Notes under the pieces: model-generated
Databases searched by the model: none
What the model was told of the DNA's origin: nothing
Seen by the model: only the letters and a program-made list of their open reading frames with translations
Part shown: positions 21,230 through 23,125 of the stretch, piece after piece
How the letters are laid out: every line of letters starts with the position of its first letter
How positions within the stretch are numbered: position 1 is the stretch's first letter
Position numbers and translations under genes: made by a program
Assembly (NCBI RefSeq): GCF_019039035.1
Contig: NZ_JAHNZT010000006.1
Coordinates: 1 to 64,000 of the forward strand
Direction: 5' to 3'
DNA: 64,000 nt
From: Citreicoccus inhibens
Lineage (GTDB): Bacteria; Myxococcota; Myxococcia; Myxococcales; Myxococcaceae

Positions 21230-21383
21230 GGCCGGACTCTATACCGGACCCTCCGGGGTCCACCGGGCCCCAGCGGACACTGTCACGTCTGGATGTAGCG
21301 CTCGGCGCCACGCCGTCCCGCCCCCTGTGGCAGGCCACGTCACGCCCAGCCCATCGCACCTGTCTTGGATATCTCGTCTTTCC

Positions 21384-21399
21384 TGGCATGGCGCGTGCT
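21384..21399 (+). promoter_or_regulatory. sigma-54 (-24/-12) promoter of the Cys-rich protein gene
   Basis: TGGCATGGCGCGTGCT matches the sigma-54 consensus TGGCAC-N5-TTGCW at 12 of the informative positions with the required GG to GC spacing. It has the same layout as the pilA promoter in this window (53790-53805). Transcription would begin near 21410, giving a leader of about 90 bases. An 8-base stem (21446-21453 with 21462-21469) lies in that leader. Confidence 0.65.
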
Positions 21400-21445
21400 C
21401 TAGCAAAGCCGCGAGCGGGGCCGTCCGTCCTGGCGCCCCGCTCGG

Positions 21446-21469
21446 CGGCCCGAGGCGAGGGTCGGGCCG
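21446..21469 (+). other. leader stem-loop
   Basis: Arms CGGCCCGA and TCGGGCCG pair perfectly over 8 bases with an 8-base loop, 31 bases before the start codon of the Cys-rich protein gene. It would form in the 5' leader of a transcript from the -24/-12 promoter. No T-run follows, so it is not an ordinary terminator. A role in stability or translation is inference. Confidence 0.4.
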
Positions 21470-21499
21470 TCGCGGCTCACCCACCCTCGGAGCCCCGTC

Positions 21500-23125
21500 A
21501 TGAAACCTGGACTGTCTTTGCTGACACCCCTGCTCGCGCTCGCGGTGCTGGGAAGTTCGCCCGCCTGGGCACAGGCCGACGAACCCATCCCCGAAGGCTG
21601 TGTCGAGAAGCGCTTCTGTGATGGGACGCAGTGCTACGCGGAGGACGCGCCCCAGTCGTTGCTGGCTTGCAGTTGCGGCCTGCTCGACCCGACGTGTGGC
21701 GTGGGCAAGTGCGTGGAAGGCGAGTACTGCGACGGCAGCGCCTGCGGAGAGACGTCGCGCTGCCATCCCTCCAACTCGCCCATCTCCCGGGTGATGTGCG
21801 CGGGAGAGAAGATGAGCCCCACGTGCGAGCTGCCCGCGGGCGGCTGCGGCGTGGGCCGTTGTGAGGACGCGGCCTACTGCGATGGCTGCGGTTGTCAGCC
21901 CCGTGACGCCGCGGCCTCGCAAGCGCTGTGCGAGTGCAAGCTGGCAGAGACGCGGTTCGGCCTGGGCGAGTGCGTGAACGGGGGCTACTGCGAGAACGCA
22001 GCGAGCGAGTCCGGCCAATGCTTCAAGCCCGAGGCCGACATCTCGCGCGCCATGTGCCGAGGCGCGACGCTGGAGCAGTGCGTGGCGTCTCCCATCCAGG
22101 AGGCGACCTATTGCAAGGACGGCCGCTACTGCGACGCGAAGGATTGCTACCCCGAGGACTCGGCCATCTCCAAGATGAACTGCGCCTTCACGCCCGCGCC
22201 GCAAGAAGCCAGGCGTCTGGCCACCGCGCTGGGCCCCTATGACGTGGGGGTGATTCCCCGCCGCCCGTGGGCCTGCCCGCCGGGCTGCGAGTACATCGAG
22301 TTCTACACGGACGACGAAGACAGCCGGAATGACAACTACACCTGGGGCTGGGTGGGCGCGACGCGGCAGAACAACGCGGGCACGCGGCTGGGCTTCTGCC
22401 GGGTGGATGGCACGCGCTTCACGAACCTCGTCGACGTGTGGAATCGCGACCTCGCCATGGCCACCTACTCCGTGCTGCGCCTGGGGTCCCGCTGCCCGCC
22501 GGGCGGGATTCCCTTCACCCGCAACATGGACAACGAGGACTCGAACAACCGCAACACCTTCACGGGCAACATCTGGCCCAACGTGTCCAACCGCAACACG
22601 TCCCTCAACTTCTGTCTGTTCATGGCCACGACGCGCAGCGGGATGCATGGCTTCCCCTGGCTGGGCTTCGAGTACGGCGTGTTCGCCGCGTCGGACCACG
22701 CCTCGTCCTACTGGCGTCAGCCGGGCTACATCCACATCGATGACGAGGACGACCACAACGCCAACTCGTTCAGCTACGACAACACCGGCAACATCGGACT
22801 GCTCATCCACTCCATGGTCTGGGGTGGCGCGAACACGGAGATGCGGCTGGCGCGCGTGACGGATCCCGACCGGCCGTGCGGCGCGCAGGTCCGCTATCAC
22901 AACGGCACCTACCTCACGCCCTGGTACGACGGCGCCAACTGCTACATCAAGCGCTTCCCGCCGTCGGGCACGCCCTTCATCTGGAACAACAGCTATTACG
23001 TGTCCGCGGGACCGGGGCGCACGTGCAGCGAGGGGTACTATGATGGCGCCAACTGCTACATCATGACCGCTCCCGCCGGGACGACTGCCTTCAAGTGGGG
23101 CAACGCCTTCTATTACGCGGAATAG
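21500..23125 (+). CDS. secreted Cys-rich, repeat-built protein of unknown function
   Basis: I do not recognise this 541-residue protein. Residues 1-25 are a signal peptide (ends AWAQA). Part 1 (about 34-230) has five Cys-rich units with the pattern 'YCD...C......I...MC' at about 37-60, 75-101, 124-147, 160-187 and 207-228. Part 2 (about 257-455) has three units carrying acidic runs: 'TDDEDSRNDNYTWGW' (270), 'MDNEDSNNRNTFTGN' (343) and 'IDDEDDHNANSFSYD' (413). These look like metal-binding loops. Part 3 has two copies of 'YDGANCYI' with a following 'F.W.N..YY' (474-502 and 512-540). No lipobox, catalytic motif or sorting tail is seen, so an extracellular or cell-surface structural protein is likely. 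It has a -24/-12 promoter upstream, GGAG before ATG 21500, and is monocistronic. Confidence 0.85.
   Translation: MKPGLSLLTPLLALAVLGSSPAWAQADEPIPEGCVEKRFCDGTQCYAEDAPQSLLACSCGLLDPTCGVGKCVEGEYCDGSACGETSRCHPSNSPISRVMCAGEKMSPTCELPAGGCGVGRCEDAAYCDGCGCQPRDAAASQALCECKLAETRFGLGECVNGGYCENAASESGQCFKPEADISRAMCRGATLEQCVASPIQEATYCKDGRYCDAKDCYPEDSAISKMNCAFTPAPQEARRLATALGPYDVGVIPRRPWACPPGCEYIEFYTDDEDSRNDNYTWGWVGATRQNNAGTRLGFCRVDGTRFTNLVDVWNRDLAMATYSVLRLGSRCPPGGIPFTRNMDNEDSNNRNTFTGNIWPNVSNRNTSLNFCLFMATTRSGMHGFPWLGFEYGVFAASDHASSYWRQPGYIHIDDEDDHNANSFSYDNTGNIGLLIHSMVWGGANTEMRLARVTDPDRPCGAQVRYHNGTYLTPWYDGANCYIKRFPPSGTPFIWNNSYYVSAGPGRTCSEGYYDGANCYIMTAPAGTTAFKWGNAFYYAE

Follow-up and report, generated by a model that had tools for sequence, protein, structure and literature searches.

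The 541-aa product of a gene in the window (the whole stretch of 64,000 nucleotides analysed here, from a predatory soil bacterium) is best explained, with a probability of about 0.6, as a secreted, disulfide-stabilised and non-catalytic bacterial ApeC-containing protein that binds cell wall or glycan and is controlled by sigma-54. The protein starts with a predicted signal peptide, has no recognisable catalytic domain and carries modules that in other proteins travel with secreted hydrolases, and a secreted binding protein is therefore the most economical reading. The original prediction was of a three-part secreted repeat protein under a sigma-54 promoter, and its open reading frame, signal peptide, three kinds of repeat and promoter-like site were all recovered (Table 1).

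Table 1. Features of the gene and its upstream region, in window coordinates.
Feature	Position	Strand	Details
Candidate enhancer (activator) site TGTGGC-N7-GTCACG	21326..21344	+	39 nt upstream of the -24 element
Sigma-54-type -24/-12 promoter TGGCATGGCGCGTGCT	21384..21399	+	GG and GC at standard spacing
CDS	21500..23125	+	541 aa, predicted secreted ApeC-containing protein
Signal peptide (predicted)	21500..21571	+	aa 1-24, AWA/Q, by eye; no lipobox
N-terminal Cys-rich domain, five units	21599..22183	+	aa 34-228; 28 Cys
ApeC-like domain	22238..22858	+	aa 247-453; three DxED units, four conserved Cys
First DXED motif, DDED	22310..22321	+	
Second DXED motif, DNED	22529..22540	+	
Third DXED motif, DDED	22739..22750	+	
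C-terminal module, two YDGANCYI...FxWxNxxYY units	22898..23122	+	

Gene, signal peptide and terminal repeats

Signal-peptide cleavage is predicted by eye at MKPGLSLLTPLLALAVLGSSPAWA/QA, and AxA-type ends are found in all five full-length homologues, suggesting that the protein is secreted. It carries 37 Cys, of which 36 are invariant across the five homologues, and its three kinds of internal repeat are each backed by profile comparison. The proposal of a secreted, three-part, Cys-rich protein is supported by these features. Besides the window copy, four full-length genes with 58-93% identity were found in the 145 genomes of the order that were searched: two in a sister species (G055) and one each in G114 and Corallococcus terminator (G071). 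With the full-length gene present in 4 of 195 genomes searched, its distribution is rare and patchy, and it is missing from most family relatives. No relatives were found in phages, plasmids or viral contigs, and an exact-peptide scan of genome contigs gave no match. A weak match in the same genome (C35, E 0.3) was taken as chance. The neighbouring genes are conserved only inside the genus, and the idea of an operon was therefore rejected. The second G055 copy lies next to a divergent gene whose product, secreted and with an SH3_3 domain, may be a cell-wall hydrolase (L032:4866-5705, - strand). Apparent remnants were also seen (L006, L035/L093, L043), namely a copy in G104 that lacks its 5' end and ApeC-like genes broken across frames in G071 and G046.

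The five units of the N-terminal array (FCDG, YCDG, YCDG, YCEN and YCDA) are mutually similar, with HHalign probabilities of 87-98%; reversed controls were mostly below 7%, with two at 25 and 42%. The five predicted 'YCD...C...MC' units are thus true repeats, although the exact 'MC' ending is found in only two of them. All 28 Cys of this domain are invariant in the five-gene family. Among 195 Myxococcota genomes, strong matches to it were limited to the five family genes, and one marginal match (E 0.002) covers a partial stretch in another family. The array may form a rigid, protease-resistant stalk or a segment for partner binding.

The two C-terminal YDGANCYI units, predicted as a repeat, match each other with 99.1% probability in HHalign (reversed 1.4%). 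The middle (aa 245-455) and end (aa 456-541) of the protein are each found separately in many other proteins of the 145 order genomes. The YDGANCY module ends M35, trypsin-type and matrixin/astacin-like (M10/M12) proteases, and lies within glycosidases (GH16 and GH5) of other Myxococcota. It is usual for binding modules to be joined to enzymes such as proteases and glycosidases. An alphaproteobacterial MAG encodes a protein with a signal peptide, an ApeC-like domain and several YDGANCY-type units (L089:5722-7083, + strand), so the pairing of the two modules is not unique to the five-gene family. The C-terminal module could provide a second contact to an extracellular polymer.

Central ApeC-like domain

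Searched as a single sequence, the whole protein gave no match in Pfam, NCBIfam or PDB, and the ApeC signal emerged only on scanning family members. Twenty-four homologous domains were aligned, and each was also scanned singly against PF16977 (ApeC, the C-terminal domain of apextrin). All 24 match the profile (best E 7.6e-9), its gathering score of 26.5 bits is attained by at least 10 single domains or proteins, with scores up to 34.2 bits, and the collinear alignment of one of them (L013) covers profile positions 2-191 of 208. None of 10 reversed sequences matched. The window copy alone is below the gathering cut-off (E 0.0013, 19.1 bits), and its membership therefore rests on the family.

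The acidic units repeat one larger unit, DxEDxxNxN-x22-30-NTxxxFC, with probabilities of 91.6-97.8% (reversed at most 4.2%). The ApeC-like domain thus splits into three mutually related units, and the three acidic units of the original prediction, DDED, DNED and DDED, make up the threefold repeat inside ApeC. The architecture had been described as one that could not be matched; a known domain accounts for this one of its three parts, while the N-terminal Cys-rich domain and the C-terminal YDGANCY module have no match in Pfam, NCBIfam or PDB. The alignment holds exactly four invariant Cys (C16, C57, C89 and C129 of A1) and three DXED motifs in about 200 aa. In PMC8361754, animal ApeC domains are described as having eight Cys and three DXED, and bacterial ApeC-like domains as having four Cys and as seemingly single-domain. 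The match of four Cys and three DXED to the published description of the bacterial type was counted for the preferred reading. The low score of the window copy, the lack of a Pfam match for the whole protein and the lack of a PDB fold match were counted against that reading. By sequence, the central domain is a bacterial ApeC-like domain.

An AlphaFold model of aa 243-541, built with seven sequences, is mostly beta (mean pLDDT 77). Foldseek comparison of this model, which spans the ApeC-like domain and C-terminal module, gave no significant match in PDB or among viral models, and the model therefore points to no binding site and supports no structure-based function. The C-terminal module modelled by itself gave a pLDDT of 49, and that model was left unused.

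ApeC-like proteins in Myxococcaceae are multi-domain and have many architectures. In the sister species G055, a subtilase is joined to an ApeC-like domain and CGDGxC repeats (L033:4631-7336, + strand). Outside the family, an astacin metalloprotease carries an ApeC-like domain in the MAG of a Sulfurimonas endosymbiont of a deep-sea snail (L090:5260-6687, + strand); the gene context there is apparently bacterial. In one relative (L007:1-2097, + strand), the ApeC-like domain follows a region weakly like thiol-activated cytolysins (Pfam E 0.0026, below cut-off; PDB E 0.054), which is possibly a parallel to the MACPF-ApeC apextrins. Cys-rich repeat arrays can serve as inhibitors or toxins, and with an ApeC-like domain following a possible pore-former in L007, the 541-aa protein might be secreted as an inhibitor of proteases or a toxin-like effector, with the array as its active part and ApeC and YDGANCY for targeting. 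However, the array matches no inhibitor or toxin family, and the short-form ApeC proteins of amphioxus that have been assayed are not bactericidal, making such an effector very improbable.

Promoter and upstream inverted repeat

The sigma-54 consensus of M. xanthus is TGGCACG-N4-TTGC(T/A) (PMC9765219). Upstream of the gene, TGGCATGGCGCGTGCT agrees with YTGGCACGN4TTGCW at 11 of 13 positions, with two departures (C to T and T to G). One such -24/-12 site in 64 kb is not significant alone (Markov expectation about 3), whereas the pattern TGGCATGNNGCGTGCT occurs only once in the 9.05 Mb genome. TGGCATG-N2-GCGTGCT is present ahead of all five family genes with 14-16 of 16 bases identical, 55-145 nt before the start codon, while its 30-nt flanks are unalignable in divergent pairs (5-13 of 30 identical). 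The -24/-12 element is thus conserved between relatives. An inverted repeat, TGTRRC-N7-GTCACR, lies 58-94 nt upstream of it (start to start) in all five genes; as this motif was found by eye in those genes, its presence there is not independent evidence.

A search of 96 family genomes for the composite of this repeat and the -24/-12 element gave eight matches (control 0): four of the family genes, the fifth having a wider spacing, and two pairs of orthologues among unrelated genes. All eight are correctly oriented and lie no more than about 100 nt before a start codon, and all eight products start with a signal-peptide-like sequence (by eye). The independent part of this search is the four non-family sites and their position before genes; their sigma-54 spacing is by construction, since it was part of the search pattern. 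The only other match in the same genome (L096:1501-2445, + strand, C38) precedes a gene with a putative secreted product of 263 aa and unknown family, and the orthologue of this gene (L144) has the same composite promoter. The second pair (L140 and L141) lies upstream of a putative secreted protein, MTRKFVQAF..., that has no Pfam match and is found in two genomes of g5, the genus to which Corallococcus terminator belongs.

Conservation in four relatives, taken with the inverted repeat upstream, carries far more weight than a lone consensus match, and argues for the predicted sigma-54-like promoter of pilA-type geometry. The two departures from the consensus, and the chance expectation of one such site in 64 kb, would also fit an operator for another regulator, with transcription starting elsewhere. 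This is unlikely, as TGGC and TGC stand at the exact sigma-54 spacing in the five genes and at the four non-family sites (by construction at the latter), and the inverted repeat is placed 58-94 nt further upstream, as enhancer sites are. Under the preferred reading, transcription would start at the sigma-54 promoter and be switched on by an enhancer-binding protein at TGTRRC-N7-GTCACR, and a few other secreted proteins may be co-expressed with the 541-aa protein through the same promoter pair.

Function and relation to known systems

Animal ApeC domains have been shown to bind peptidoglycan and to agglutinate bacteria without killing. By analogy, the three DxED/NxN loops may be where the ApeC-like domain of the 541-aa protein binds peptidoglycan of the bacterial cell wall or a related glycan, and a metal ion may take part; calcium binding, suggested earlier from the likeness of the acidic units to ion-binding loops, is possible. 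The protein could act in prey capture or in adhesion to the cell surface or matrix, and its sequence would also be compatible with a part in development. Peptidoglycan binding is so far limited to a few animal domains with eight Cys each, and this was counted against the reading, as were the rarity of the gene and its lack of conserved neighbours outside the genus.

The very high and fully conserved Cys content would also suit a structural protein that is cross-linked through disulfides in the extracellular matrix, in the fruiting body or on the spore surface, and whose ApeC-like part serves for self-adhesion. Sea urchin apextrin is an apical extracellular-matrix protein (PMC8361754), and several Myxococcus sigma-54 promoters are developmental (PMC9765219). 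However, no coat or matrix family was matched, the related modules on secreted hydrolases are a better fit to a binding module, and the gene is missing from most family relatives. A structural role is therefore the less probable reading, and the spore-coat-like protein of the original prediction found no support in Pfam or NCBIfam, where no coat family was matched.

Predatory myxobacteria may have a shuffled ApeC repertoire that parallels that of animals and serves prey cell-wall recognition, with the 541-aa protein belonging to a small sigma-54-controlled secreted regulon. This broader view is tentative, and would cover fusions of ApeC with proteases, with Cys-rich arrays and with one possible cholesterol-dependent-cytolysin-like pore-former (compare MACPF-ApeC apextrin). 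Multi-domain bacterial ApeC proteins in predators offer a tractable place to test the ApeC ligand and the role of DXED, and the promoter pair points to a small, testable set of putatively co-regulated secreted proteins and offers a way towards their presumed activator.

ApeC is described mainly as an immune lectin domain of aquatic invertebrates, and its bacterial relatives as distant, single-domain homologues. A bacterial ApeC-like domain is thus already known in principle (Li et al. 2021, cited in PMC8361754). The literature searched, in which Li et al. 2021 is represented through the citing paper only, gave no earlier description of the multi-domain architectures, of the Cys array specific to this family or of the conserved promoter pair, and priority for these is not certain.

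The promoter resembles those of Myxococcus pilA, actB and nla28 in its TGGC-N8-TGCT geometry and upstream activator repeat (PMC9765219), but TGTRRC-N7-GTCACR differs from both the Nla28 half-site CT(C/G)CG(C/G)AG (PMC9765219) and the NmpR site GCGCA-N5-TGCGC. Like the invertebrate ApeC, apextrin and short-form ApeC proteins, the family described here has a domain of about 200 aa with three DXED, a predicted secreted product, fusion to other domains and a profile match across its members. It differs from them in having four conserved Cys rather than eight, a Cys-rich array and YDGANCY rather than MACPF or CUB as partners, and an ApeC-like domain in mid-chain. The four Cys and the bacterial host are shared with the ApeC-like proteins of Li et al. 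2021, and, whereas the citing paper describes those as single-domain, the 541-aa protein has two further repeat modules and its relatives have other partners.
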